DNA of 64,000 nucleotides, taken from NCBI RefSeq assembly GCF_017894365.1, contig NZ_CP059467.1:310001-374000 (forward strand). The letters run 5' to 3'. The translations under genes were made by a program, and so were the position numbers. Below are positions 1 through 14,642 of the stretch, one piece after another (the first letter of the stretch is position 1; each line of letters starts with the position of its first letter). The DNA comes from Aromatoleum bremense. GTDB taxonomy: Bacteria; Pseudomonadota; Gammaproteobacteria; Burkholderiales; Rhodocyclaceae. Under the pieces are notes generated by a model, which was not told the DNA's origin, did no database searches, and saw only the letters and a program-made list of their open reading frames with translations.

Positions 1-893
1 CGCACCACCGCGTCATAGGCGCTCTTCTGGACCAGCAGACGGCTTCCCGCGGCGCAGGTCTGGCCGGCGTGCTGGAGGATGGTGCGCAGGATGACGGGCG
101 CGGCGGCGTCGACGTCGGCATCCGCGAAGACGATATGGGGCGACTTGCCGCCCAGTTCGGCAACGACCTTGACCTGGTTCCGCGCGGCGGCCTGCTGCAC
201 GCGGGTGCCCACCTGGGTCGATCCGGTGAACGACAGGTGGTCGATGCCGGGATGGCCCACCAGGGCCTCGCCCGCCTCCGCCCCGTAGCCGGTAACGATG
301 TTGAGCACCCCCGGCGGCATGCCCACCTCGTCGAAGATGCGGGCGAACTCCAGCGTGATGAGGCAGGCGTCCTCCGACGGCTTCAGCACGGTGGTGTTTC
401 CTGCCGCCAGCGCCGCACCGAGGGAGCGGGCGAACTGCTGGGCAGGATAGTTCCACGGCAACACGTGCGCGCTGACACCATGCGGCTCGTACACCACCGA
501 CACGTGATAGTCGTCGTGGAACGGAATCACGGCCCCGTGCAGCTTGTCGGCGGCCGTCCCGTAGAACTCCAGGTAGCGGGCGGCGACCTCGATGTCGGTG
601 CGGGCCTGCCCGATCGGTTTGCCGGTGTCGCGCGCCTCGACCACCGCCAGTGCCTCGACGCGATCCAGGATGAGCGCGCCGGCGCGGGCGAGCAGCCGGC
701 CGCGCTCCACCGGCCGAAGCTTCGACCACGGCCCGTCCAGTGCGGCGCGCGCAGCGGCGACCGCACGATCGACATCCTGCGGGCCGCCGCGCGACAGGGC
801 ATCGTAGGCGGCGCCGGTACTCGGGTCGATCACGGCGATCGAATCCGTGTGTTGCGCGTCCGTCCAGCATCCATCGATGAAGAGCTTGTGCAC
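1..893 (-). CDS. aldehyde dehydrogenase, 3' end outside window
   Basis: NAD(P)-dependent aldehyde dehydrogenase oxidising an aldehyde to its acid. About 297 of the usual ~490 residues are visible; the C-terminus lies beyond the left edge. The frame is open from a GTG start at 893, preceded by GGAG, and begins VHKLFIDGCW, a normal ALDH N-terminus. Visible family signatures are the HVLPWNYP region, the ELGGKSPHIVFADAD block with the general-base Glu, and GQTCAAGSR with the nucleophilic Cys. The gene is divergent from the LysR gene across a 148-bp region carrying a perfect operator-like palindrome (1003-1025). It closely resembles the second ALDH gene at 2098. The substrate cannot be read from the sequence. 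Confidence 0.93.
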   Translation of the reverse strand, partial: MHKLFIDGCWTDAQHTDSIAVIDPSTGAAYDALSRGGPQDVDRAVAAARAALDGPWSKLRPVERGRLLARAGALILDRVEALAVVEARDTGKPIGQARTDIEVAARYLEFYGTAADKLHGAVIPFHDDYHVSVVYEPHGVSAHVLPWNYPAQQFARSLGAALAAGNTTVLKPSEDACLITLEFARIFDEVGMPPGVLNIVTGYGAEAGEALVGHPGIDHLSFTGSTQVGTRVQQAAARNQVKVVAELGGKSPHIVFADADVDAAAPVILRTILQHAGQTCAAGSRLLVQKSAYDAVV

Positions 894-1002
894 TTCCCGT
901 CTCCAATGTTCTCGCGCTCGACAGGGAATCCGTCTGCGTCGTTTCGATGGAGGCAATGCTAGGAACGGCGCGACACGCCGACAAACGACTTATTCGCCGA
1001 CA

Positions 1003-1025
1003 ACGATTGAGAAATACTCAATCGT
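1003..1025. promoter_or_regulatory. LysR operator candidate 1, perfect 23-bp palindrome
   Basis: Arms ACGATTGAG and CTCAATCGT flank an AAATA spacer. The core ATTGA-N7-TCAAT has the T-N11-A symmetry typical of LysR boxes. It lies 16 bp upstream of the LysR start and about 110 bp upstream of the divergent ALDH start, a placement that suits autoregulation plus activation of the target. The same core recurs at 1973, 10446 and 11608. Confidence 0.75.
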
Positions 1026-1041
1026 CTGCCAGACTCAGGAC

Positions 1042-1947
1042 ATGGACCGACTGCCTCCCCTCAATTCCCTGCGTGCTTTCGAAGCGGCCGCCCGACACCT
1101 GAGCATCACGGTTGCGGCCAATGAACTGCATGTCACGCCCGGCGCGGTCAGCCGCCAAATCCGCACGCTGGAGGAAGTGCTCGGCGTGCAGCTCCTGCAT
1201 CGCGGACATCGACAGATCACGCTCACCCGCCCGGGCGACGACTACTACCGCGCGGTGACCAGGGCCATGGACGCGCTGCGCGAAGCCACCCTCCGGCTGA
1301 CCAAGCGTGCCAAGCGCAAGCAGCTCAAGGTCCGCGCCTACACGACGTTCGCGATGCGCTGGCTCATTCCCCGGATCTCCAGCTTCCATGCGGCGAACCC
1401 CGGCATCGAAGTGTTGCTCACCGCGTCGCTGGAACCAGTGGACTTCCGCAAGGAAGACATCGACGGTGCGATCCGGCTCGGCGACGGCAAGTGGAGCGGC
1501 GTGAACGCCCATCGCCTGGTGTCCAATGTGCTGCTTCCCGTGTGCAGTCCCGCCCTGCTTGCGGCGAGCGCCACCAAGGTGAAAAAGCCGGCGGACTTGC
1601 AGCACCAGACCCTGTTGCACTCCATCGCGCGCGCCGACGACTGGCGCTATTGGCTGGAAGCGGCGGGCGTCGACAAGCAGATCGACGCGCGCAGCGGAAT
1701 GACCTACCAGAGCTCTGCAATGGCCTATGCGGCGGCCGTCGAGGGGCAAGGCTTCGCCATCGCACAACGCTTCCTGGTGGAGGCCGATCTCCAGGCGGGC
1801 AAGCTGGTGGCCCCATTCCGCCAGACCGTCGACATGGGCGATTTCACCTACTACCTCCTGACACCCGCCGACCGCAAGGAAAGCGCCAGCATGGCCACCT
1901 TTCGCCAGTGGCTGCTTGAGCAGTTTCAGACCGCCGAAGCGACCTGA
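1042..1947 (+). CDS. LysR-family transcriptional regulator, GcvA-like
   Basis: A 301-residue LysR-type regulator. The N-terminal winged helix-turn-helix covers about residues 1-65 (MDRLPPLNSLRAFEAAAR, then VAANELHVTPGAVSRQI) and is followed by the periplasmic-binding-protein-like effector domain. The opening resembles the GcvA clade. The start at 1042 matches the family; an upstream in-frame extension would overlap the palindrome at 1003-1025. The regulator sits among catabolic genes whose upstream regions share the same palindrome, so it probably controls the whole 1-13 kb cluster, including itself. The effector is unknown. Confidence 0.93.
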   Translation: MDRLPPLNSLRAFEAAARHLSITVAANELHVTPGAVSRQIRTLEEVLGVQLLHRGHRQITLTRPGDDYYRAVTRAMDALREATLRLTKRAKRKQLKVRAYTTFAMRWLIPRISSFHAANPGIEVLLTASLEPVDFRKEDIDGAIRLGDGKWSGVNAHRLVSNVLLPVCSPALLAASATKVKKPADLQHQTLLHSIARADDWRYWLEAAGVDKQIDARSGMTYQSSAMAYAAAVEGQGFAIAQRFLVEADLQAGKLVAPFRQTVDMGDFTYYLLTPADRKESASMATFRQWLLEQFQTAEAT

Positions 1948-1972
1948 CAGCGCACAGGAACGCCACGGCAGG

Positions 1973-1989
1973 ATTGAGTTTTCATCAAG
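1973..1989. promoter_or_regulatory. LysR operator candidate 4, ATTGA-N7-TCAAG
   Basis: Reads ATTGA GTTTTCA TCAAG: the same half-sites and spacing as the sites at 1006, 10446 and 11608, with one mismatch in the last base. It lies 109 bp upstream of the second aldehyde dehydrogenase gene, a distance similar to the other sites. Confidence 0.55.
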
Positions 1990-2097
1990 CCTGGTGTGCG
2001 GAAATCTCGCTTGCTGCCCGCCTGAAGCGCTTCCTATGATCCAGAGCCCCGCGCGTCATTGCGCGGTGCGCACAACGGATAAAGGAGACAGCGCACG

Positions 2098-3576
2098 ATG
2101 CGACGCTATCAAATGTTCATCGACGGCGAGCCGAGCGATTCGGCGTCCGGCGAGTGGTTCGAGACGGCCAATCCCTACACGGGCGAGCCTTGGGCGCAGA
2201 TTCCAAGGGGCACCGCCGCCGACGTGGATCGCGCGGTCGGTGCCGCCCGCCGCGCCTTTGCCGGCGGTCCCTGGCCAGAGCTGACCGCCAGCGAGCGCGG
2301 CCATCTGCTGCTTCGGCTTGCGGACGTCCTGGCGCGCGAGGCCTCCCGCCTCGCGGAGATCGAAGTCCGGGACAACGGCAAGCTCTACGCCGAAATGAGC
2401 GCCCAGCTGAAGTACCTGCCCGCCTGGTTCCGTTACTTCGGCGGCCTGGCGGACAAGATCCAGGGCGCGGTGATTCCGCTGGACAAGAAGGGCTATTTCA
2501 ACTTCACGCGCCGCGAGCCCTTGGGCGTGGTGGCCGTCATCACGCCGTGGAACTCGCCGCTGATGCTGACTGCCTGGAAGATCGCGCCCGCGCTGGCGGC
2601 CGGCTGCACGGTGGTCCTCAAGCCGTCCGAGTTCACCTCGGCGTCGACGCTGGAGTTCGTCCGCCTGTTCGAAGAGGCCGGCTTTCCCAAGGGCGTCGTG
2701 AATGCCGTCACCGGCTTCGGTGCCGAAGTGGGCGCGGCGCTGGTCGAGCATCGCGATGTCGCGTGCATTTCGTTCACCGGTGCGGACAGCACCGGGCGCC
2801 GCATCAACGAGGCGGCAGCGGCCACCTTCAAGCACGTGAGCCTGGAACTGGGTGGTAAGTCGCCCAACATCGTGTTCGCCGATGCCAATCTCGACGACGC
2901 CCTCAACGGGGCCATCTCCGGCATCTTCGCCGCCACCGGCCAGACCTGCATCGCGGGCTCACGCCTGCTGCTCCAGTCGAGCATCCACGACGAGTTCGTC
3001 GAGCGCCTGGTGAAGCTCGCGGCAACCGCACGCATGGGCAATCCCATGGACCCCGCTACCGAAGTGGGGCCCGTGACGACACCGCCGCAATACGAAAAGG
3101 TGCTGAGCTACATCGACATCGCTAAGTCCGATGGCGCCCGCTTGCTGCTCGGCGGCAAGCCCGCGTCGAAACCTGAATGCGGCACGGGATGGTTCTTCGA
3201 GCCGACGATCTTCGGGGACGTGACGTCCTCGATGCGCATCGCCCAGGAAGAGGTGTTCGGGCCGGTGCTCTCGGTCATGCGCTTCGAGGACGAGGAGGAA
3301 GCCCTGCGCATTGCCAACGACGTGCGATTCGGCCTCGGCGCAGGCGTCTGGACGAGCGATATCGGCCGTGCCTTCCGCATGTCGGAACGGCTGCAGGCAG
3401 GCACCGTGTGGGTCAATACCTACCGCGCCGTGAGCTGCATGTCGCCCTTCGGCGGCTACAAGGACTCGGGGCTCGGGCGCGAGAACGGCATGGCCGCGAT
3501 CGAAGCCTACCTGCAGACCAAGAGCGTGTGGATCAACACCGGCGCCCAGGTCGACAATCCCTTTGTCATCCGATAG
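2098..3576 (+). CDS. aldehyde dehydrogenase
   Basis: A full-length (492-residue) NAD(P)-dependent aldehyde dehydrogenase. The general base Glu250 lies in LELGGKSPNIVFADAN and the nucleophile Cys284 in GQTCIAGSR; the VITPWNSP substrate/cofactor loop is also present. The start ATG follows an AAAGGAGA ribosome-binding site. The stop is ten bases before the next gene, whose Shine-Dalgarno starts at the stop codon, so the two are co-transcribed. An operator-like palindrome lies at 1973-1989. Together with the downstream beta-hydroxyacid dehydrogenase it probably oxidises an aldehyde made from the inducing substrate; the exact compound is unknown. Confidence 0.95.
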   Translation: MRRYQMFIDGEPSDSASGEWFETANPYTGEPWAQIPRGTAADVDRAVGAARRAFAGGPWPELTASERGHLLLRLADVLAREASRLAEIEVRDNGKLYAEMSAQLKYLPAWFRYFGGLADKIQGAVIPLDKKGYFNFTRREPLGVVAVITPWNSPLMLTAWKIAPALAAGCTVVLKPSEFTSASTLEFVRLFEEAGFPKGVVNAVTGFGAEVGAALVEHRDVACISFTGADSTGRRINEAAAATFKHVSLELGGKSPNIVFADANLDDALNGAISGIFAATGQTCIAGSRLLLQSSIHDEFVERLVKLAATARMGNPMDPATEVGPVTTPPQYEKVLSYIDIAKSDGARLLLGGKPASKPECGTGWFFEPTIFGDVTSSMRIAQEEVFGPVLSVMRFEDEEEALRIANDVRFGLGAGVWTSDIGRAFRMSERLQAGTVWVNTYRAVSCMSPFGGYKDSGLGRENGMAAIEAYLQTKSVWINTGAQVDNPFVIR

Positions 3577-3586
3577 GAGGCCCCGA

Positions 3587-4489
3587 ATGAAGGACAAGAT
3601 TGGATTTGTAGGCCTCGGCGCCATGGGCGGCAAGATGGTTCCCCATCTGCTGAAGGGGGGGTACGAGGTGTTCGTCTGCGATTCGCAGGTCGAAGCGGTC
3701 GCGTCCGCGGTGATGGGGGGTGCCGCGCGCTGCGAGTCGCCTCGGCATGTCGCCGACCATGCCGACATCGTGCTGGCCTGCCTGCCCACACCGGACGTCG
3801 TCGAGCAGGTGGCACTCGGCAAGGCAGGCATCGCCGAGGGCAAACGGGTGAGGATTTTCGTCGACCATTCCACCACCGGCCCGTCGATGGCCCGCAGCCT
3901 CGCCCTGCGCCTGGCCGAGCACGGCATCGCGGCGCTCGACGCACCGCTGGCCGGTGGCGTCGCCGGCGCCGACGCCGGCACGCTGTCGGTGATGGTGGGC
4001 GGCGATCGCGCCGCCTTCGAGCGCTGCGAACCCGCCTTCAAGAGCTTCGGCCGCAAGGTCGTGCACGTCGGGACCGAGCCGGGCGCGGGACAAACGCTGA
4101 AGCTGGTGAACAACATGATCGTGGGCGCGACCTTGATCGCGACCTCCGAGGCCGTGCTGTTCGGCCTCAAGAGCGGCCTCGACGCGCGTGTCCTGCTCGA
4201 CATGATCAATGCCAGCACGGCGCGCAGCTTCACCAGCGAAACGCTGGTGGCCAAGGCGGTCCTGTCCCGCCGTTTCGACTTCGGCTTCCGGATGGATCTG
4301 ATGCGCAAGGACGTGCGCCTGTTTCTCGCCGAAGCCGAGCAAGTGGGTGTGTCCACCTTCATGGCATCGGTGACGAAGCAGTTCTTCGACCGTTCCATTG
4401 CGCAAGGGTATGGCGGGGACGACATGACGCAGGTGGTACGCGAACTGGAGCAACTGGCCGGCGTCCAGATCGCCGCCGCAGCGGCGTGA
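3587..4489 (+). CDS. 3-hydroxyisobutyrate dehydrogenase-like beta-hydroxyacid dehydrogenase
   Basis: A 300-residue NAD(P)-dependent beta-hydroxyacid dehydrogenase of the HIBDH/GarR/GlxR family. The N-terminal dinucleotide motif GFVGLGAMG covers residues 6-14, the substrate loop DAPLAGGVAGA starts near 118, and the catalytic Lys172 lies in GAGQTLKLVNN. The ATG at 3587 is chosen because AGGAGG ends six bases before it. It forms an operon with the preceding ALDH. The family interconverts 2-methyl-3-hydroxy acids or tartronate-type acids with their semialdehydes, and pairing with an ALDH recalls distal valine catabolism. Here the context is a specialised pathway, so the substrate is left open. 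Confidence 0.9.
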   Translation: MKDKIGFVGLGAMGGKMVPHLLKGGYEVFVCDSQVEAVASAVMGGAARCESPRHVADHADIVLACLPTPDVVEQVALGKAGIAEGKRVRIFVDHSTTGPSMARSLALRLAEHGIAALDAPLAGGVAGADAGTLSVMVGGDRAAFERCEPAFKSFGRKVVHVGTEPGAGQTLKLVNNMIVGATLIATSEAVLFGLKSGLDARVLLDMINASTARSFTSETLVAKAVLSRRFDFGFRMDLMRKDVRLFLAEAEQVGVSTFMASVTKQFFDRSIAQGYGGDDMTQVVRELEQLAGVQIAAAAA

Positions 4490-4516
4490 CGGAGACTGAT
4501 TGCGTTGTATGGCGAA

Positions 4517-4537
4517 GCGCCGCCCACCGGGCGGCGC
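4517..4537 (+). terminator. hairpin downstream of the ALDH/HIBDH operon
   Basis: A perfect 9-bp GC stem, GCGCCGCCC / GGGCGGCGC with an ACC loop, lies 27 bp after the stop codon. There is no clear T-run, so it may act as a weak terminator or 3'-end stabiliser. Confidence 0.45.
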
Positions 4538-4625
4538 AAGCAGGCTTACTCTCCCGGGCCGTGCAGGCTCGCTGCGGCGGGTAAGGGCATCCCGACGCCT
4601 GCCGCACAGACGTCAACGTGAAACA

Positions 4626-4663
4626 CCATCCGACCGGCACTTCAACCGCGACCGGTCGGATGG
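4626..4663. terminator. stem-loop between convergent genes
   Basis: Perfect 12-bp inverted repeat CCATCCGACCGG / CCGGTCGGATGG around a 14-base loop, in the gap between the rightward HIBDH-like gene and the leftward SDR pseudogene. It could serve both transcripts; there is no T-tract. Confidence 0.5.
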
Positions 4664-4684
4664 CTCGTGCTACGGCACCCAGGA

Positions 4685-5432
4685 TCAGATGCAGCGCCCG
4701 CCGTCCACGGGCAATTCGACTCCGCTGATGAAGGACGCCTCGTCGCTCGCCAGGAACAAGGCTGCGTGGGCGACATCATCCGGTTCACAGAAGCGGCCGA
4801 GCGGGATGGTGGCCAGAAAACGCCGGCGATTCTCGGGTGTGTCCGGCACGCCCATGAAGTCGCCGATCATCCCGGTCGCGCCGATCACCGGACAGATGGC
4901 GTTGCCCCGGATCCCGTCCGGCGCCAGTTCGGCGGCAAGCGACTTCGACAGCAGGTTCGCAGCGCCCTTGGACGCGTTGTACCAGGTCGGGCCGGGGCGT
5001 GGCCGCAGACCGGCGACGGAGCCGACGTTCAGGATCACGCCCGAACGCGCACGCCGCATCAAGGGCACGGCGGCGTGAGTCATATGAAAAATGCTCTTGA
5101 CGTTGATGGCGAACACCCGGTCGAAGGTCGCTTCATCGACCCCCAGCATCGGCTGTTCGATGCGGTCCATCCCGCGTTGTTGCCCATGACATCCAGCCTG
5201 TCGCCCGACCGTGTGCGTGGGCGACAAGTGCTTCGACGTCTCCCTGCGCGAGACGTCGTTGGTGAACGCCATTGCGCGCTCACCGAGCTCCGCGGCGACC
5301 TGCTTCGCACCGTCACCGCTGATGTCGGCCACGATCACCTTCGCGCCTTCCTGCGCGAATCGCATGGCGATGGCCTTGCCGAATCCGCTGGCGGCGCCCG
5401 GTCACGATGGACACTTTGTTCTTCAATCTCAT
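4685..5432 (-). pseudogene. short-chain dehydrogenase/reductase, multiply frameshifted
   Basis: The remains of a roughly 248-residue SDR. The start MRLKNKVSIVTG is read from ATG 5432, but the cofactor motif AASGFGKA continues only in another frame (indel near 5395). Further frame jumps occur near 5243, 5206 and 5162: NDVSRR, then GDVEALVAHAHGR, then GDRLDVMGNNAGW, then EQPMLGVDEATF. From there the C-terminal half is continuous, with LNVGSVAGL, the catalytic WYNASKG and the terminal SGVELPVDGG. The gene is the last of the leftward catabolic operon. Four indels in 300 bp mean a recent pseudogene or local sequencing error; the high identity to an SDR outside the indels argues against old decay. 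Confidence 0.8.
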
Positions 5433-5559
5433 CAATTCGTCTCCGTTTGTGGGTAGTCGCCCGTTGGTGCCGACGCCGAGCACACCGTCCGGTGCCCTGC
5501 CCGCCTGCCTGCGCCGAAACCGGTACAGGCTTCGCCGCACCGATGGGTAGCCGCCCTTG

Positions 5560-6804
5560 TCATTGCGAGTAAACGGCTTGCCGTTGTGCTGCGGGGGAAC
5601 TGGCCCCCTCGCCGCAATGGATGGCACGCCGCGCGAGCAAGGCCGCGATGTCATCGACGCTGTACCCCAACCCGAGCAGCACTGCTCGGGTGTCCTCACC
5701 ACAGGCCGGCGCAGGCCGCGAGGGCTGCGAATTTTCCGCCGCGCTGTTGATCGGGAAGCCCGGCATGCGGATCGTCCCCAGCGTCGCGTGTTCGACTTCG
5801 CCGATCATCCGGTTGGCGGCCACCTGCGGGTGGCGCACCACGTCCTCATACGTTGCGACGCGCGCGCAAAGAATGTCGGCGTCCTTCAGGACGGGGAGCC
5901 ACTCCTGCGTCGAACGCGTCACGAAGACACGCGTGAGCGCCTCGACCATCTGCGGCCGGTTCGCGACCCGCAAGGGCGAGGTGGCGAAGCGGGGATCGTC
6001 GATCAGGTGCTGCAGCCCGAGCAGCTCGCAAAGTCGCCGCCAGCGCTCCGGCGTGTAGGCGGCCACCATGATCCAGCCATCGGACGTTTCGAAGGCCTGA
6101 TTCGGCGCGGAATACGGCGCCGCACTGCCGGCCCGGACGGGCAGCTCGCCATCCGCAAAATAGCTGGTGAGCGACGATTGCTGCAGCGCCAGCGCCGAAT
6201 TCAGCAGATTGACGTCGAGGTGCCCACCCTGTCCGTCGCGCGCCCGCTGCGCAAGCTTGGCGAGCACACCCATGCAGGCCACATAACCGGTCATCACGTC
6301 GACCACCGGCGCCTGCACCTTGCAAGGTTCGCCCCCGGCGAGCCCGATCAGGCTCATCAGGCCCGAATCGGCCTGCACGATGCCGTCGACCCCCGCCCGG
6401 TCGGCATACGGCCCGGTCTGGCCGTAGGCGGAGATCGAGCAGTAGATCAACGACGGATGGTCATTCACGAGCTGCGCGGGACCGAGCCCGAGGCGCGCCA
6501 TCACCCCGGGCCGCATGCTCTCCACGACGATGTCGGCGTCGGCCACGAGGCGCCTGGCGACCGCGACGCCGTCGGGCGACTTCAAGTCCAGCGACACCCC
6601 GAGCTTGTTGCGATTGAAGGCGTGGAACAGCGCGCTGTCGTCGCCGATCCACCCGGGCCCCAGTCCCCGCCCCAATTCCCCCGCGGGCGGCTCCACCTTG
6701 AGGACACGGGCGCCCATGTCAGCCAGCAGCATGGTGCACGTCGGGCCCGCACCGATCTGGGTGAAATCGACGACGGTCAGCCCGTCCAATGCGTCGCGCA
6801 ACAT
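5560..6804 (-). CDS. class III (CaiB/BaiF) CoA-transferase
   Basis: A 414-residue family III CoA-transferase, which moves CoA from a donor thioester to a free acid. The N-terminus LTVVDFTQIGAGPTCTMLLADMG and the GQTGPYADRAGVDGIVQADSG block are typical of the family. Asp169 in VVDVMTG coincides in number and context with the catalytic aspartate of formyl-CoA transferase. The start codon is one base past the stop of the thioesterase gene, so translation is coupled. It most likely activates the acid produced by the aldehyde dehydrogenases of this cluster, before hydration and thiolysis. The acid is not identifiable. Confidence 0.93.
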   Translation of the reverse strand: MLRDALDGLTVVDFTQIGAGPTCTMLLADMGARVLKVEPPAGELGRGLGPGWIGDDSALFHAFNRNKLGVSLDLKSPDGVAVARRLVADADIVVESMRPGVMARLGLGPAQLVNDHPSLIYCSISAYGQTGPYADRAGVDGIVQADSGLMSLIGLAGGEPCKVQAPVVDVMTGYVACMGVLAKLAQRARDGQGGHLDVNLLNSALALQQSSLTSYFADGELPVRAGSAAPYSAPNQAFETSDGWIMVAAYTPERWRRLCELLGLQHLIDDPRFATSPLRVANRPQMVEALTRVFVTRSTQEWLPVLKDADILCARVATYEDVVRHPQVAANRMIGEVEHATLGTIRMPGFPINSAAENSQPSRPAPACGEDTRAVLLGLGYSVDDIAALLARRAIHCGEGASSPAAQRQAVYSQ

Positions 6805-6805
6805 C

Positions 6806-7195
6806 CTATGCCTCCGAGCTTGAGAGGGTTCGTTTGAAGGTGCCCTGCGCGGTCGCGACCAGTACGCCGGAATCGGTCAGCAATTGCCCGATCGAGAAGT
6901 ACAGGCTGCGTCCGGTCTTCGCGACGGATCCGATTGCACGAATGCGCCCCGCATCGACCTTGCTCAGGTAGCTGATCGTCAGCATCACGGTGACGGCGTT
7001 GCCCAGCTCACCGTCCTGCGCGTCTCGCAGGCCGGCGTAGCCGCACGCTGCGTCGAGCAGGGTCGCGGTCACACCCCCTTGCAGGCAGCCCTGGCGATTC
7101 AGATGCCGGGGCTCGACGTCGAGCTCGAACGCGCACTGCCCCATGCCGACGGTGGCCAGACGAATGCCCAGGTACTCCAGCAACGGGTTGTCCAT
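6806..7195 (-). CDS. PaaI-type hotdog-fold acyl-CoA thioesterase
   Basis: A 129-residue single hotdog-domain protein of the PaaI/YbdB family, which hydrolyses acyl- or aryl-CoA esters and usually rescues CoA from dead-end intermediates. Visible are the LNRQGCLQGGVTATLLDAACGYA helix region, with Gln where many homologues have HGG, and the strand set following NAVTVMLTISYL. The start is taken at MDNPLLEYLG because AGGAGA lies just upstream; a longer in-frame N-terminus has no ribosome-binding site. It is tightly packed in the catabolic operon between the crotonase and the CoA-transferase. Confidence 0.88.
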   Translation of the reverse strand: MDNPLLEYLGIRLATVGMGQCAFELDVEPRHLNRQGCLQGGVTATLLDAACGYAGLRDAQDGELGNAVTVMLTISYLSKVDAGRIRAIGSVAKTGRSLYFSIGQLLTDSGVLVATAQGTFKRTLSSSEA

Positions 7196-7242
7196 CGATG
7201 TCTCCTGAAAAATGAATGCGGGCTTCGATCGCGGCCGCACGA

Positions 7243-8046
7243 TCAGCGCCCGACGTAGGTCGGCGGGCGCTTGTCGGCGAAGGCCCGGCGCCCCTCCAGC
7301 CGGTCCTCGGTGTCGCGCAGCACGCCCCAGTAGAGCTCGGTGAGCTGCTGGGCATCCGCTTCACCGAGGTGGCTCGTCTGGCGCGACAGCCTCTTGATCG
7401 CCTGCACCGCGAGCGGCGCGTTGGCCGCGATCTTCGTGGCGACCGCCAGGGCGCGCTCCAGCAAGGCGCCCGGCGCGACGGACTCGGTGACGAGGCCGAT
7501 CCGCTGCGCCTCGTCCGCGTCGATCCGCTCGCCCGTCAGCACCATCTGCATCGCATGGGCGGAAGGCACCGCCTTGAGCAGCCGGTGCAGGCCCGCGACC
7601 GCCGGAATCGACCCGACGCACGCTTCCGGCAGGCCGAAGCTCGCATTGGCGGAGGCCAGTCGCACGTCGCACTGCAGGGCGATTTCGAGCCCGGCGCCGA
7701 GGCAGTGGCCGTTGACCGCGGCGATCACCGGCTTCCACAGGCCGAGGTCGGTCAGATCCATCAGGCGGATGTAGAGACCGAGATCGGCGGCCCGCTCGGG
7801 GGCGTGGAACAGCGCCTCCGGATAGGTGGCGGGCGAAGTCCGCGTGCCCTTCAGGTCGGCGCCGGCGCAGAACGCGCGCGTACCGGCGCCGGTGAGGATC
7901 GCGACGCGCAGGTCGTCGCGGTCGCGAACCTCGGCGAGGTGCGCGCGCAGCGCGCGCAGGTCGGCGACGTCCAGGGCATTCAATGCCTCCGGCCGGTCGA
8001 TGGTGAGGACGGCGACGAGGCCGTCGATCTCGAAACGCACGGTCAT
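7243..8046 (-). CDS. enoyl-CoA hydratase/isomerase (crotonase family)
   Basis: A 267-residue crotonase-fold enzyme that hydrates a 2-enoyl-CoA to the 3-hydroxyacyl-CoA or catalyses a related reaction. The oxyanion-hole segments are AFCAGADL (58-65) and NGHCLGAGLE. Glu121 and Glu141 (FGLPEACVG) sit where the two catalytic glutamates of hydratase occur, so true hydratase activity is likely. The start ATG follows GAGGAGG. It is 11 bp downstream of the SDR gene in the same operon and would supply that dehydrogenase with a 3-hydroxyacyl-CoA. Confidence 0.93.
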   Translation of the reverse strand: MTVRFEIDGLVAVLTIDRPEALNALDVADLRALRAHLAEVRDRDDLRVAILTGAGTRAFCAGADLKGTRTSPATYPEALFHAPERAADLGLYIRLMDLTDLGLWKPVIAAVNGHCLGAGLEIALQCDVRLASANASFGLPEACVGSIPAVAGLHRLLKAVPSAHAMQMVLTGERIDADEAQRIGLVTESVAPGALLERALAVATKIAANAPLAVQAIKRLSRQTSHLGEADAQQLTELYWGVLRDTEDRLEGRRAFADKRPPTYVGR

Positions 8047-8057
8047 GGCCGCCCTCC

Positions 8058-8822
8058 TCACACGCTCGGCGACGACAGGCTGCGCCCGCCGCACACGTAG
8101 AGCGTCTGCCCGGTGACGTAGGACGAGCGCGGATCGAGGAAGAAGGCGACCGCATTGGCGATGTCGTCCGCCGTGCCGATGCGCTGAACCGGCACCGACT
8201 TCTGCAGCTTTGCCTGGACCTCGGGCGCGAAGTTGCGGAAGAGCGGCGTGTCGATGATGCCCGGCGCCACGGCGTTGACCGTCACTCCCTTGGCGGCGAA
8301 CTCGATCGCCAGCGAACGGGTGAGGCTCACCACCCCGCCCTTGGCCGCCGAGTAGTTCGCCTGCCCGAAGCCGCCGAGCCAGGCGCGCGAGGAGATGTTC
8401 ACCACCCGGCCGTAGCCGCGCTCGATCATCCCCGGCAGCACCGCGCGGCAACACAGGAACTGCGAGCGCAGGTTGGTATCGATGACGAGATCCCAGTCCT
8501 CGTCGCGCATGTTGAGAAAACGCATGTCGCGCACCGCACCGGCGTTGTTCACCAGGTAGTCGATGCGCCCGGCCTGCGCGGCGATGTCGGCGAAGGCGGC
8601 GTTGACCGCCGCCGAGTCGGTGAGGTCCACCGTGGCGCCGATCGCCTTCAGGCCCTCGTCTGCGAGTCCGCTGACCGCCTCGTCGAGGGCGGCGCCGTCA
8701 CGGTCGAGGAGCGCCACGGTGAGCCCTTCGCGCGCGAGTTGGGTCGCGATGCCGAGGCCGATGCCGCGGGCGGCGCCTGTTACCGCGGCGACGTGGGTGG
8801 AGTCGAAGCGTTGCATGTCCAT
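8058..8822 (-). CDS. short-chain dehydrogenase/reductase, FabG-like
   Basis: A 254-residue SDR. The cofactor motif TGAARGIGLG, the NNAG motif, NISS with the catalytic Ser and NYSAAKGG with the catalytic Tyr-Lys pair are all present, and the C-terminus has YVTGQTLYVCGG. The ATG at 8822 follows GGGGGTG and lies directly after the thiolase stop; MQRF at 8816 is an alternative start. Between a hydratase and a thiolase, it is best explained as the 3-hydroxyacyl-CoA dehydrogenase of a short beta-oxidation-like route. Confidence 0.93.
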   Translation of the reverse strand: MDMQRFDSTHVAAVTGAARGIGLGIATQLAREGLTVALLDRDGAALDEAVSGLADEGLKAIGATVDLTDSAAVNAAFADIAAQAGRIDYLVNNAGAVRDMRFLNMRDEDWDLVIDTNLRSQFLCCRAVLPGMIERGYGRVVNISSRAWLGGFGQANYSAAKGGVVSLTRSLAIEFAAKGVTVNAVAPGIIDTPLFRNFAPEVQAKLQKSVPVQRIGTADDIANAVAFFLDPRSSYVTGQTLYVCGGRSLSSPSV

Positions 8823-8823
8823 G

Positions 8824-9969
8824 TCACACCCCCAGCAGATGAACCGACGAGGCGGCATGGTCGACGCCCGCAATGCCGCCGCCGGTGCATTGGGTGAGGC
8901 CCACGCGCGCGCCTTCGACCTGGCGCGCGCCGGCACGCCCCTGCAGGTGCCACATGATCTCCACCATCTGCGCGACGCCGGTCGCACCGAGCGGATGGCC
9001 TTTCGCCAGCAGCCCCCCGCTGGGGTTTACCGGCACGCGCCCGCCGAGCTGCGTGGCGCCGGACTGCAGGAAGGGAACCGCTTCGCCGTGCGGCGCGAGA
9101 CCCAGCGCCTCGTAGTAGAGGAGCTCGGCGATGGTGAAGGCGTCGTGGAGCTCCACCACGTCCACGTCCCGCGGACTCAGGCCCGCCTGCTCGTAGGCCT
9201 GGCGGGCGGCGCGGGCGGTGATCTCGGCGTCGAGGATGTCGTCGTCGGCCTGTTCCCGGATGCCGGACACCACCACCGACGACAACACCTTCACGGGTCG
9301 CGCCTGCGACGGGCGCCGCGAGCTCAGCACCACCGCGGCCGCCCCGTCGACCTGCGAGGGGCAGCACTGCAGCAGCGTGAGCGGATCGGCGATCATGCGC
9401 GAGGCGAGCACCTCTTCCACCGTGGTTTCGCTGCGCTGCTGGGCATATTCATTGAGCGCGCCGTGGCGCCGGTTCTTCACCGCCACGGCGGCGAGATCGG
9501 CGGGGCTCGCATTGCGCTCGTGGAGGAAACGCGTGCCGCGCATCGCATACACCGCCGGCAGCACCATCCCGGCCTTCGCGTAGAGCTCGGTCTTGTGGTC
9601 GTTGCGCTGCATCGGGATGGTGCCGCCGCCCAGCGCGGTGAGCTGCTCGATGCCGAACACCAGCACGGTGTCGTACTGTTGGGCGAACAAGGCGTGCCGC
9701 GCGAGATGCACGGCGGTGGCGCCGCTCGCGCAGGCGTTCTCGATGTTGTAGACGGGGATCCCGTCGAACCCGAGGTCGCGCACGATGAGCTGCCCCAGGA
9801 TCATGCCGCCCAGCACGTTCGCGCAGTAGATGGCCTGGATGTCGTGCGGCGACACGCCCGCGTCGTCCATAGCCGCGAGGATCGCCTGCTGCGCGAGCTC
9901 GGGGGCGAGCACGCCCGGATGGCGGCCGAAGGGGGTCATCGCGCCCCCGCTGATGTAGATGTCTTGCAT
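8824..9969 (-). CDS. thiolase, SCP-x/lipid-transfer type
   Basis: A 381-residue thiolase-fold protein of the SCP-x/acetyl-CoA acetyltransferase type that usually works with a DUF35 partner. Cys80 in ENACASGATA is the nucleophile. His275 (ELHDAF), His325 (GHPLGATG) and Cys361 (CTGGG) complete the active site, so thiolytic cleavage rather than the retro-aldol reaction of Cys-less relatives is expected. The ATG at 9969 is preferred over 9975 because GAGG lies eight bases before it. The DUF35 gene ends 19 bp upstream, as is usual for this pair. Confidence 0.92.
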   Translation of the reverse strand: MQDIYISGGAMTPFGRHPGVLAPELAQQAILAAMDDAGVSPHDIQAIYCANVLGGMILGQLIVRDLGFDGIPVYNIENACASGATAVHLARHALFAQQYDTVLVFGIEQLTALGGGTIPMQRNDHKTELYAKAGMVLPAVYAMRGTRFLHERNASPADLAAVAVKNRRHGALNEYAQQRSETTVEEVLASRMIADPLTLLQCCPSQVDGAAAVVLSSRRPSQARPVKVLSSVVVSGIREQADDDILDAEITARAARQAYEQAGLSPRDVDVVELHDAFTIAELLYYEALGLAPHGEAVPFLQSGATQLGGRVPVNPSGGLLAKGHPLGATGVAQMVEIMWHLQGRAGARQVEGARVGLTQCTGGGIAGVDHAASSVHLLGV

Positions 9970-9988
9970 GGTCATTGCCTCGGTGGGG

Positions 9989-10342
9989 TCAGGCCGCGAC
10001 GGCCTCGAAGACGTAGCCGAAGTTCTCGTCCGGCCGGGGGAAGTAGCGATCGCCGATCGCGGGGCGGTCCTTGCCCTGCAACCGCCCGAAGATGCGGACA
10101 GGACCGGGAAAATCCACGTAACCCAATGCGTAAGGCGCAAGGCCGCTCTTCGGGCTCGGGTGGATCACGGTGAAGCTGTAGACGACCCCAATGCCTCGTA
10201 CGGGCACGGTCTGATGGCGCGCCGCCAGCGGCGAGGCCTCGGGCACCGCGGGGAACACCCATTCGCCGGTGCCGCGATCGCGCGATGCGAGCAGGACCGG
10301 GTGAGGCTCGGAAGTCCAGAGTGGGTAGGGTTGGGGTGACAT
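9989..10342 (-). CDS. DUF35 OB-fold protein, thiolase partner
   Basis: A 117-residue OB-fold nucleic-acid-binding-like (DUF35) protein, first gene of the leftward catabolic operon. The start MSPQPYPLWT follows AAGGAGA. The OB-fold part is recognisable as VYSFTVIHPSPKSGLAPYAL and the FGRLQGKDRPAIGD segment. DUF35 proteins normally have an N-terminal rubredoxin-like zinc ribbon with two Cys pairs. Here the corresponding stretch, LLASRDRGTGEWVFPAV, has no cysteine, so zinc binding is lost. By analogy with thiolase-DUF35 complexes it probably shapes the acyl-CoA pocket of the adjacent thiolase. Confidence 0.85.
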   Translation of the reverse strand: MSPQPYPLWTSEPHPVLLASRDRGTGEWVFPAVPEASPLAARHQTVPVRGIGVVYSFTVIHPSPKSGLAPYALGYVDFPGPVRIFGRLQGKDRPAIGDRYFPRPDENFGYVFEAVAA

Positions 10343-10444
10343 GCTCGTCTCCTTGTCGAGGGTGATTGCACGCGCCCTTGGGGGGCCGTTGAGCAATCTT
10401 TGTCTCCCGGCGGATTCCCGACAAACGATATTTCCAGCCCGAAC

Positions 10445-10463
10445 GATTGAGTATTTCTCAATC
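10445..10463. promoter_or_regulatory. LysR operator candidate 2
   Basis: GATTGAG-TATTT-CTCAATC, a perfect 7-bp inverted repeat with the same ATTGA-N7-TCAAT core as the site at 1003. It sits in the divergent gap between the leftward catabolic operon (103 bp from its first start) and the rightward SDR (154 bp), so one site could serve both. Confidence 0.72.
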
Positions 10464-10616
10464 TTCGCACGCCATTGCAGCGCGCGCGGCGATGGGGAAT
10501 TGGCATCCTTTGGTTGCCAATCAATCGCCGACTATTGGGCTAGTTGAGCGCGTTGCGAACGTTTAAATTTGTTCCCGCAGCCTCCCCCTCGACAACGAAT
10601 CGCAAAAGGAATCGAC

Positions 10617-11471
10617 ATGTCCACATCCGAGAAGAAAGTCTGGTTCATCACCGGCGCATCCCGCGGTTTCGGCCTGGAAGTCGCCCGCGACGCATTGCAG
10701 CGGGGCGACCTCGTCGTCGCCACCGCCCGCAAGCCCGAGACCATCACGGCCGCCCTCGGCGCGCACGACAGCCTGTATTGCGTTCCGCTCGACGTCACCG
10801 ACGAAGCGCAGGCCATCGCCGCGGCCGACGTTGCCGTGGCGCGCTTCGGCCGCATCGACGTGCTGCTCAACAACGCCGGCTATGGCCTGCTGGGCGCGGT
10901 CGAAGAGGCCAGCGCGCAGGAGGTCGAGCGCCAGTTCGCGACCAACGTGTTCGGGGTGCTGAACGTGACGCGCGCCGTGCTGCCGCACATGCGCCGCGCC
11001 GGCAAGGGCCACGTCATCAACATCTCGTCCATCGGCGGTTATGCCGCCTACGCGGGATGGGGTGTGTACGGCGCTACCAAGTTCGCGGTGGAAGGGCTCA
11101 CGGAAGCGCTGGCGATGGAGCTCGCCCCGCTGGGCATCCATGCCACGGTGGTCGAGCCGGGCTTCTTCCGCACGGACTTCCTGGACGACGCCTCGCTGGT
11201 CCGCACCCGGCGGGAACTGGACGACTACGCGGCCACCGTCGGTGCCATGCGCGACTTCAGCACGTCGGCCAACCACCAGCAGCCGGGCGACCCGAAGAAG
11301 CTCTCGCGCGCCCTGCTCGTCCTGGCCGACAGTCCGAAGCCGCCGGTGCGCCTGCCGCTGGGCACGGACACGGTGGCCCGGATCGCCGAGAAGAACCGGT
11401 CCGTCGAGGCCGAACTGGAGCAGTGGCTGACCGTGGCGGTGTCGACGGATCACGACGACGTCGCCAAGTGA
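10617..11471 (+). CDS. short-chain dehydrogenase/reductase
   Basis: A 284-residue classical SDR. The cofactor motif TGASRGFG is at residues 13-20, followed by LLNNAGYG, ISSIGGYAAY with the catalytic Ser, and VYGATKFAVEG with the Tyr-Lys pair. The start ATG follows AAAGGAA; upstream in-frame codons lack a ribosome-binding site. The long C-terminal tail is typical of broad-specificity alcohol or ketone oxidoreductases. It is divergent from the DUF35/thiolase operon and shares the operator at 10445. It may oxidise the primary alcohol ahead of the aldehyde dehydrogenases (inference). Confidence 0.9.
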   Translation: MSTSEKKVWFITGASRGFGLEVARDALQRGDLVVATARKPETITAALGAHDSLYCVPLDVTDEAQAIAAADVAVARFGRIDVLLNNAGYGLLGAVEEASAQEVERQFATNVFGVLNVTRAVLPHMRRAGKGHVINISSIGGYAAYAGWGVYGATKFAVEGLTEALAMELAPLGIHATVVEPGFFRTDFLDDASLVRTRRELDDYAATVGAMRDFSTSANHQQPGDPKKLSRALLVLADSPKPPVRLPLGTDTVARIAEKNRSVEAELEQWLTVAVSTDHDDVAK

Positions 11472-11478
11472 CCCGCCT

Positions 11479-11512
11479 GACGGGCCTCCCTCCAGCGCGA
11501 GGGCGGCCCGTC
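11479..11512 (+). terminator. strong hairpin after the SDR gene
   Basis: GACGGGCC pairs with GGCCCGTC and an inner CCCTC/GAGGG stem closes a short loop, giving a 13-bp stem seven bases after the stop codon. No T-run follows. Confidence 0.5.
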
Positions 11513-11605
11513 GCGTCTCCGGCCGACCCGCAGCGGCCGGCCCGATCCCGTTCGCCTTCCAAATGCTCGCAGCTCGCGCGGCAACCGGTGCGCGCCGGGT
11601 CTCGA

Positions 11606-11626
11606 CGATTGATATTCCTTCAATCG
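11606..11626. promoter_or_regulatory. LysR operator candidate 3
   Basis: CGATTGA-N7-TCAATCG, the same ATTGA-N7-TCAAT core as sites 1 and 2. It lies about 145 bp upstream of the MFS transporter start, so the transporter looks like part of the same regulon. Confidence 0.65.
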
Positions 11627-11768
11627 ACCTGCGCCGATTTCTCGATTGACCGTGCGAGGCTGCGGCGAAAAACTCGATCCCCCGGTTTCACGCGATCCCG
11701 CTCACGGACCGGACGCCGCACGCCAGCCCGATGGACGTGCCGCAGCGTTGATGAAGGGATGACAAGCG

Positions 11769-12995
11769 GTGAACAATCTCGAAACCACGGCCGACCGTCG
11801 CGTAGGCGGTGCAGCGGCCCTGATGGTGCTTTTCCTCACCACTGTCGTTCAATCTCTCACGTCAATGGCTGCGCTGATGGTGCCCGTGCTGGCGCCGCGG
11901 ATGGCCGTCGATCTCGGCCTGCCACCGGCCACCGTGGGCTATTACATCGCCCTGGTGTTCCTTGCCGCGATCCCGGCCACGGTGCTGGGAGGCGATGCGG
12001 TGATCCGCTTCGGCCCGATCCGGGTGAGCCAGGCCGGCCTGGTGATCTGCGCCATCGGCCTGGCGCTCCTTTGCGTCGGCAGCCCCTGGCTGTGTCTGCT
12101 CGGAGCCTTGTTGATCGGATTCGGCTACGGTCCGGTCACGCCCGCCAGCAGCCATATGCTGTCGCTGTCGACGCCACAGAGAAACCTGGGCCTGGTGTTT
12201 TCGGTCAAGCAGACCGGCGTTCCGCTCGGGGGCGCGCTCGCTGGCTTCTTTGCCCCGATGCTCGAGGCGTCGGTGGGCTGGCAAGGCGCGCTGCTCGCCG
12301 TCGCCTGCCTGCTCTGCTGCGCGGCGACGCAGTCGCTGCGCACCCCGCACGACGACGATCGCATCCGCAGCCATACGCTCGGACTGGGCGTCTTTCGCGA
12401 ACTGGCGCGGCTGCTGGCACGCTCACCGTCGCTGCGGACCCTCGCCTTCGCGTCGTTCTGTTTTTCGACCTTCCAGCTCTCGCTCACCACCTACCTGGTC
12501 ACTTATCTGCACGAAACCTTCGGCTATACGCTGGTTGCGGCCGGGCTGACCATGTCTGCGGCACAGGCTTCAGGGGTCATCGGCCGCATCCTGTGGGGCA
12601 TTGCCGCTGACCGCTGGCTCGGCTCGGTCAGGATGCTCGCGGCCCTCGCCGTGGCGATGGCGGCAGGCGCAGCGGTCCTCGCGGGCATGCCCGCGACATG
12701 GGGACCGTGGCCTCTGATGGCTGTCGTCTGCATCGTCAGTGCGTGCGCGCTCGGCTGGAACGGCACCTTCCTGGCCGAGGTCGCGCGCCAGGCTCCGTCC
12801 GGCGCTGCTGGACGTGCGACGGGGGCGATCCTGTCATGCACCTTCGCCGGCGTCGTCGTCGGCCCCCCGCTGTTCGGAATCGTGGCCTCACTGACGGGCG
12901 GTTATCGCCTGGCGTTCGCTGTCATTGCGGCCGGGCCGGCCATCGCCGCCATTGCGCTGTACCTGAAGCGTTCGACCTTCCGCACAAGCACCTGA
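11769..12995 (+). CDS. MFS transporter
   Basis: A 408-residue major facilitator superfamily permease with about twelve hydrophobic segments. The central part contains the conserved GYGPVTPASSHML and FSVKQTGVPLGGALAGF stretches seen in CynX/NNP-type and related carriers, and a hydrophilic loop near residues 195-210 separates the two halves. The GTG start is preceded by GAAGGGA. With an operator-like palindrome upstream, it probably imports the inducing substrate of the catabolic cluster. Direction and substrate cannot be read from the sequence. Confidence 0.9.
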   Translation: MNNLETTADRRVGGAAALMVLFLTTVVQSLTSMAALMVPVLAPRMAVDLGLPPATVGYYIALVFLAAIPATVLGGDAVIRFGPIRVSQAGLVICAIGLALLCVGSPWLCLLGALLIGFGYGPVTPASSHMLSLSTPQRNLGLVFSVKQTGVPLGGALAGFFAPMLEASVGWQGALLAVACLLCCAATQSLRTPHDDDRIRSHTLGLGVFRELARLLARSPSLRTLAFASFCFSTFQLSLTTYLVTYLHETFGYTLVAAGLTMSAAQASGVIGRILWGIAADRWLGSVRMLAALAVAMAAGAAVLAGMPATWGPWPLMAVVCIVSACALGWNGTFLAEVARQAPSGAAGRATGAILSCTFAGVVVGPPLFGIVASLTGGYRLAFAVIAAGPAIAAIALYLKRSTFRTST

Positions 12996-14052: not shown

Positions 14053-14642
14053 CCGCTTTTGTTTCGAATATCCCGATCGTAGCGGGCAAGCTGCGGCATC
14101 GCACGGTGAAGGTAATAGCCCATCGACCACAACGTCAGGGCTGCTGCAATATAAATCAGGACGTTACCGATCACGCGAAGGTCCAGCGACAGCAACGGTG
14201 CATTGTAGAGCAGCAGCGGAATGGCCGTCATCTGCGCCGCCGTCTTCAACTTGCCGACGAAAGCGACCGCAACGCCGGCCGATTGCCCGACCCGCGCCAT
14301 CCATTCGCGGAGTGCTGAAATCGTGATCTCCCGGCCGATGATGACGACGGCGATGATGGAATCGACGCGCGCGAGCTGCACAAGCAGGATCAGCGCCGCT
14401 GCAACCATCAGCTTGTCCGCGACCGGGTCGAGAAACGCGCCGAAGGCCGAAGTCTGGTTGAGTGCGCGGGCGAGATAACCGTCGAACCAGTCGGTGACGG
14501 CTGCGACGATGAAAATGACCGTTGCGACGAAGTTTTTCTCTTCGACGTCGAGCCAGCTGTCGGGAAGATAAAATACGCCGACAAACAGCGGAATCAGCGC
14601 AATGCGCGCCCAGGTCAGCGAATTCGGAACATTGAATAGCAT
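14049..14642 (-). CDS. pgsA: CDP-diacylglycerol--glycerol-3-phosphate 3-phosphatidyltransferase
   Basis: Makes phosphatidylglycerophosphate from CDP-diacylglycerol and glycerol 3-phosphate at the inner membrane, the committed step to phosphatidylglycerol and cardiolipin. The 197 residues are mostly hydrophobic. The CDP-alcohol phosphatidyltransferase motif DG-x2-AR-x8-G-x3-D-x3-D is complete: D54, G55, A58, R59, G68, D72, D76. The start MLFNVPNSLTW is the normal family N-terminus. The gene follows uvrC and precedes the tRNA-Gly/Cys operon, a widely conserved arrangement. Confidence 0.97.
   Translation of the reverse strand: MLFNVPNSLTWARIALIPLFVGVFYLPDSWLDVEEKNFVATVIFIVAAVTDWFDGYLARALNQTSAFGAFLDPVADKLMVAAALILLVQLARVDSIIAVVIIGREITISALREWMARVGQSAGVAVAFVGKLKTAAQMTAIPLLLYNAPLLSLDLRVIGNVLIYIAAALTLWSMGYYLHRAMPQLARYDRDIRNKSG

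Follow-up and report, generated by a model that had tools for sequence, protein, structure and literature searches.

A candidate regulon of a GcvA-like LysR regulator with two-part operators in a catabolic gene cluster of Aromatoleum bremense

A gene for a LysR-type regulator in Aromatoleum bremense is surrounded by catabolic and transport genes that look unrelated, which raises the question of whether they respond to one signal. An earlier note on this DNA, written from the letters alone, had proposed that four matching palindromes define a LysR regulon joining two aldehyde dehydrogenases (ALDHs), a beta-oxidation-like operon, an SDR, and an MFS carrier. Here, we followed up this proposal in the same stretch of 64 kb (the window), in the complete genome, and in related loci. 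Matching sites that resemble landing sites of the cluster's own regulator suggest that these seemingly unrelated genes probably form one co-controlled pathway.

Palindromes and genes of the cluster

A motif scan of the window found perfect ATTGA-N7-TCAAT palindromes at 1006 to 1022 (site 1), 10446 to 10462 (site 2), and 11608 to 11624 (site 3) and a copy with one mismatch at 1973 to 1989 (site 4), just where the earlier note had placed them and with the uniform T-N11-A spacing that it had described. Its estimate that they lie about 100 to 155 bp upstream of catabolic or transport genes also holds, with measured gaps of 103 to 154 bp: 112 bp from site 1 to the start of ALDH1 (893, minus strand), 108 bp from site 4 to ALDH2 (2098), 144 bp from site 3 to the MFS gene (11769), and, for site 2, 103 bp to the OB-fold gene (10342, minus strand) and 154 bp to an SDR gene (SDR2, 10617). 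As noted before, site 1 also sits immediately ahead of lysR, 19 bp from its ATG (1042).

No perfect palindrome appeared in 100 dinucleotide shuffles of the window, and palindromes with at most one mismatch number six, versus 0.63 expected; two of these, at 14631 and 40997, were absent from the earlier list. The complete genome (4,376,837 bp) contains five perfect palindromes, compared with none for the reversed control pattern. The two beyond the window, at 4,284,824 and 4,293,568, both lie in a second copy of the cluster, so that the perfect motif is confined to the two cluster copies and is not dense elsewhere. Another 23 palindromes carry one mismatch; four fall within the window or copy 2, and the others are scattered.

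The features of the cluster are collected in Table 1. The lysR product has the N-terminal HTH_1 and LysR substrate domains (Pfam) that mark the LysR family and scores 337.1 bits against the NCBIfam GcvA subfamily model (cut-off, 288); its closest solved chain is 8y6u_H (E = 2.4e-67), and 8y6u is a glycine cleavage activator.

TABLE 1 Genes, two-part sites, and predicted lysR promoter of the cluster (window coordinates)
Feature	Position	Strand	Remarks and basis
ALDH1, extends past the left edge of the window	1..893	-	Class assigned by eye and from 42% identity with ALDH2
Site 1: palindrome, 11-bp gap, second box	979..1022	-	Points to ALDH1; scan, box matrix
Predicted lysR promoter, TTGAGA-17-CAGACT	1007..1035	+	-35 inside site 1 palindrome; sequence, palindrome conserved there
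lysR, GcvA-like LysR-type regulator, 301 aa	1042..1947	+	Pfam HTH_1 and LysR_substrate; NCBIfam
Site 4: one-mismatch palindrome, 11-bp gap, second box	1973..2016	+	Points to ALDH2; scan, box matrix
ALDH2, aldehyde dehydrogenase	2098..3576	+	Pfam Aldedh
HIBADH-like 3-hydroxyacid dehydrogenase	3587..4489	+	Pfam NAD_binding_2 and NAD_binding_11
Likely operon: OB-fold, thiolase, SDR, enoyl-CoA hydratase-like, hotdog thioesterase, class III CoA-transferase	5560..10342	-	Gene positions; Pfam except hydratase
Site 2: palindrome, 11-bp gap, second box	10419..10462	-	Points to OB-fold/thiolase operon; scan, alignment, box matrix
Site 3: palindrome, 11-bp gap, second box	11608..11651	+	Points to MFS; scan, box matrix
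MFS carrier	11769..12995	+	Pfam MFS_1

ABC importer genes stand behind ALDH1 in the sequence left of the window (locus L006), where a transposase-like ORF abuts and overlaps the permease-like gene of the importer (L006 4653 to 6582; by eye). The gene order of the thiolase operon is retained in relatives, often with one additional transporter-like gene. A decaying third SDR gene, frameshifted near its start and internally, closes the operon in the window (4685 to 5430, minus strand). ARAGORN reports a tRNA-Ala at 3932 to 4025, within the HIBADH-like gene, which is probably a false positive.

The operon invites comparison with the bbs operon, which encodes an OB-fold partner, an SDR, and a class III CoA-transferase; all three have counterparts in the window, and 7pxp_C is the closest solved relative of the window thiolase (E = 4.6e-81) in the comparison with the benzoylsuccinyl-CoA thiolase BbsAB. 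However, the thiolase scores only 298.8 bits against the NCBIfam BbsB equivalog model (cut-off, 750), and, unlike in bbs, an acyl-CoA dehydrogenase is absent from the listed operon genes. Judged by sequence, the window enzymes resemble the BbsAB thiolase system yet fall below the BbsB cut-off. From gene content alone, an unsaturated or aryl acid, or its alcohol, may be considered as the substrate.

A second box and the direction of the sites

Alignment of eight OB-fold/thiolase promoters, two from this genome (window and second copy), four from Cupriavidus, and two from Azohydromonas, revealed an element that the earlier note had missed, a second box, GAAATnTCGTTTGTCG or a close variant, 11 bp beyond the palindrome. 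A matrix built from the six boxes of other species was scored at this fixed offset on either side of each palindrome, with all window positions as background. One side of every site scored well (p = 1.6e-5 for site 1, 7.8e-6 for site 2, 4.7e-5 for site 3, and 2.3e-5 for site 4), and all four opposite sides scored at background. In the second cluster copy, the thiolase site had p = 7.8e-6 and the CoA-transferase site a weak 7.1e-4; the matrix detected no second box at the copy-2 lysR site or at the stray palindromes at 14631 and 40997 (best p, 0.08).

A genome scan for the complete pattern, TTGA-N7-TCAA-N18-TCGNTTG, gave five perfect matches, at sites 1 to 4 and at the thiolase promoter of copy 2. 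No match has exactly one mismatch, and seven have two, including the CoA-transferase site of copy 2; when up to three mismatches are allowed, the numbers of matches (42 and 46) differ little from the control (37 and 37). The matrix is the fairer test, because the pattern was composed with knowledge of the window sites.

We conclude that the palindrome is one half of a two-part operator and that the second box sets its direction. Most of the links drawn in the earlier note stand, since the two-part sites point to both ALDH genes, the thiolase operon, and the MFS gene. The link to SDR2 is not supported: the box of site 2 is on the side of the thiolase operon, and on this orientation we set SDR2 aside as a target of site 2 in this genome. 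A different dyad, TTGGCA-N9-TGCCAA, lies ahead of SDR2 at 10500 to 10520 and might be the site of another regulator (by eye).

A predicted −35 element, TTGTCG in most sites, falls within the second box. A −10-like hexamer 17 bp past this −35 is conserved among 50 collected sites (43 have A at position 63, 40 have A at position 66, and 39 have T at position 67); this tally excludes L128, L131, L133, L134, L145, L168, and L169, judged to be chance matches or to belong to another regulator clade, and the MFS promoter has a poor −10. The conserved −10 at 17 bp puts the center of the palindrome about 65 bp before the inferred transcription start. A T-N11-A dyad near −65 of such inferred starts, followed by a second site at −35, is the layout of LysR family targets. 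The overlap of the lysR palindrome with the gene's own predicted promoter is another family trait; as the palindrome covers the −35, LysR should repress its own gene. The lysR ATG follows the predicted −10 by six bases, and the message may perhaps be leaderless or nearly so.

The same frame is found at the gcvA-gcvB operator of Escherichia coli. A passage of Oliver et al. (2016; PMC5002191) places GcvA repeats, ATTAG-n5-CTAAT, at −65 and −43 of gcvB, 22 bp apart. In the K-12 sequence, a dyad centered at −65 from the annotated gcvB start is followed by 11 bp, AAATTGTCCGTTGAGC, a 17-bp spacer, and TATAGT; as in the window, the dyad at −65 is thus followed after 11 bp by a AAATTGTC...TTG box that holds the −35, with 17 bp to the −10. 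The two regulators belong to the same LysR subfamily, but their details differ: the arms are TTGAG/CTCAA (ATTGAG-n5-CTCAAT) in the window and TTAG/CTAA for GcvA, the recognition helix is TPGAVSR versus TQAAVSH, and the second box is TCGTTTG versus TCCGTTG. Whereas gcvB has two repeats, the window has at 22 bp the right half of a second repeat and no clear left half (by eye). The window operators are at catabolic genes, and the two-part operators that we found lie elsewhere than the E. coli GcvA targets gcvTHP and gcvB. The gcvB frame with other arms argues for a new regulon that is GcvA-like but not that of GcvA. LysR regulators of aromatic catabolism in betaproteobacteria (CatR, BenM, ClcR, and their kin) likewise have odd T-N11-A dyads before catabolic operons, but the consensus given in the available text of PMC6449761, AkACC-N5-GGTAT, is unlike the window arms, and “GcvA” does not occur in that text.

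We therefore favor, with a probability of roughly 87%, a model in which the four palindromes would be recognition sites of the 1042 to 1947 product, which would activate its targets and repress itself within one inducible pathway. The GcvA-like LysR would occupy the palindrome (IR1), centered about 65 bp before the inferred start, and, with inducer, would also touch the second box by the −35, whereupon the gene would be activated. The targets would be ALDH1 with the ABC importer behind it, ALDH2 with the hydroxyacid dehydrogenase, the OB-fold/thiolase operon, and the MFS carrier, and the pathway would run from uptake of the compound through aldehyde oxidation and CoA thioester formation to thiolytic cleavage. 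Alternatively, LysR might bind these sites mainly to repress the targets, as the overlap of the second box with the predicted −35 and the annotation of K-12 GcvA as a dual regulator would allow; we consider this unlikely, because passages of PMC8407307 and PMC5002191 describe activation in this family from a site near −65 paired with another at the −35.

Conservation in relatives and the second cluster copy

Comparison of upstream regions supported the regulon reading of the earlier note. Among lysR orthologues 72 to 87% identical, together with both lysR copies of this genome, a palindrome with at most three mismatches precedes lysR in 37 of 39 rows; four pairs in this set are one sequence under two ids, and the count for distinct sequences is 33 of 35. 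In 34 of the 39 rows there is at most one mismatch, and in 36 of 37 the palindrome begins 33 to 38 bases ahead of the start codon (that of L125 is extrapolated). Both Azohydromonas loci are the exceptions, with a palindrome before lysR that is weak or lost. Before the OB-fold/thiolase operon, the palindrome is present in all eight aligned loci with at most four mismatches.

The regulator is patchily distributed, with orthologues in 2 of 399 genomes of an order-wide sample and 2 of 297 of a family-wide sample, both in the genus of the window. In the family of genome G352, 32 of 398 genomes have it, all in one genus, which we take to be Cupriavidus because four loci match named Cupriavidus loci over the 100 bp before lysR. 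In this genus, 26 of the 32 genomes with lysR but 1 of the 28 without it contain a perfect two-part site, and 31 and 7, respectively, contain one with at most one mismatch (raw counts that ignore kinship); that the lysR search covered all 60 genomes was deduced from handle numbers. A single lysR-containing genome has no two-part site even at one mismatch. Closer to home, a relative in the window's genus, G1061, has two perfect sites, both inside its version of the cluster; another, G192 (L089), shows a palindrome without a box at the expected place (by eye) and has no lysR match in its genome.

Sites in relatives precede HIBADH-like and ALDH genes (L158, L159, and L164), an MFS gene (L158, L162, and L164; class by eye), the ABC importer (L088), and Mo-hydroxylase-like genes (L160, L161, and L163; one mismatch each, class by eye). 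In L167, the SDR2 orthologue has a perfect site of its own. In L009 and L014, this orthologue and lysR are divergently oriented with the palindrome between them, and there is no box within one mismatch.

The second cluster copy is partly decayed. Its matching pieces are 76 to 92% identical to the window DNA, lysR is broken into two pieces in different frames, and the MFS gene is partial; a one-mismatch palindrome precedes its CoA-transferase gene (4,287,236). Site 2 is retained between the copies although its surroundings are only about half identical, and beyond the two boxes the site copies have no longer sequence in common. Window positions 8201 to 9800, over SDR1 and the thiolase gene, are 98 to 100% identical to copy 2 (L008) up to 9800, with flanks at 75 to 90% and below; in sequence, this tract looks like gene conversion. 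Near both copies there is also an identical 3,735-bp stretch (1 to 3735 of L006 and 12263 to 15997 of L008) with istA/istB-like ORFs (by eye).

Arms and recognition helix in GcvA-like regulators

The two-part layout was also sought at 73 distant GcvA-like loci with lysR products 39 to 48% identical. Of the TCGTTTG copies upstream of lysR in 72 of these, 39 point away from the gene and one points toward it, compared with a total of 2.9 expected. The distance from a T-N11-A dyad to the box behind it is 17 bp in 31 loci and 16 bp in 6, with one or two loci at other distances. The frame is present in 29 of the 64 loci taken for this count versus 0.2 in mononucleotide shuffles and in 0 of 11 other LysR-type genes, a small control. 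Of 14 held-out plasmid-borne relatives, only one has the strict frame, and we therefore do not claim that the second box is universal.

In 37 of the 73 loci, a search for ATTGA arms near lysR gave nothing better than two-mismatch matches, found in nine loci at scattered places, because those loci have other arms. The arms go with the recognition helix. Exact TTGA-n7-TCAA accompanies PGAVSR in 8 of 13 loci (a class that includes the window and its orthologues), ATGA-n7-TCAT accompanies QTAISH in 13 of 14, and TTAG-n5-CTAA accompanies QAAVSH in 9 of 16; no member of these three classes exactly shows the arms of another (raw counts that ignore kinship). Among smaller classes, exact ATGA/TCAT is found with QAAISH (1 of 11) and QTAVSH (2 of 2), TTAG/CTAA with PAAVSH (1 of 3), and TTGA/TCAA with AGAVSR (1 of 1). 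This tally took in all 14 held-out loci. Inspection of seven of them found TTGA-n7-TCAA at −37 or −36 of lysR in four, exact in L176, L177, and L179 and with one mismatch in L175, all with a PGAVSR or AGAVSR helix. L188 (PGAVSR) has a weak palindrome with one mismatch at −28, and no palindrome precedes lysR in L178 or, despite its PGAVSR helix, in L184.

Thus, the link between helix and arms has some predictive value, and the second box is widespread without being universal. The link is perhaps new: we found no description of it or of this operator in searches of an open-licence library, where TCGTTTG together with LysR gave no match either. If it holds, it will aid the reading of regulons in an abundant, poorly characterized regulator subfamily. 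A bolder generalization, to which we give somewhat less than even odds, is that GcvA-like regulators share one operator frame (a palindrome, an 11-bp gap, and a TCGTTTG-type box at −35) in which only the arms vary and can be read from the helix. The box would then be a constant contact without specificity, and the regulons of many unnamed GcvA-like regulators would be predictable from sequence.

These patterns bear on the possibility that the palindromes are bound by a regulator encoded elsewhere and that lysR merely adjoins them. In G895, a genome without lysR, the SDR2 orthologue is still preceded by a perfect two-part site, as this would predict; the T-N11-A form, the fixed place of the palindrome before lysR, its co-occurrence with lysR, the GcvA geometry, and arms that track the LysR recognition helix all speak against it and make it quite improbable. 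Chance or a dispersed repeat, for which the one-mismatch palindromes scattered across the genome might be cited, is ruled out by the empty shuffles, the genome scan with 5 of 5 perfect sites in homologous clusters, the box matrix and two-part pattern scans, and the preservation of site 2 and the boxes without the sequence around them.

With control by the cluster's own LysR as the preferred reading, a palindrome caught by eye becomes a defined, directional regulon with promoters that can be tested singly. One substrate would tie together both ALDHs, the thiolase operon, the transporters, and additional oxidoreductase genes of relatives.

Some further loci recall the window. L179, on pLA3 of Novosphingobium pentaromativorans, has TTGAC-n5-CTCAA at −37 of a gcvA-like gene, and the genes divergent from it encode an OB-fold protein and a thiolase, the gene pair of the window. 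In L168 and L169, a LysR about 48% identical to that of the window is encoded beside a CoA-transferase; the operator there, TTWACAAAAAGTCAA plus TCGATTG, is related to that of the window, and these loci may represent a sister regulon with changed arms.
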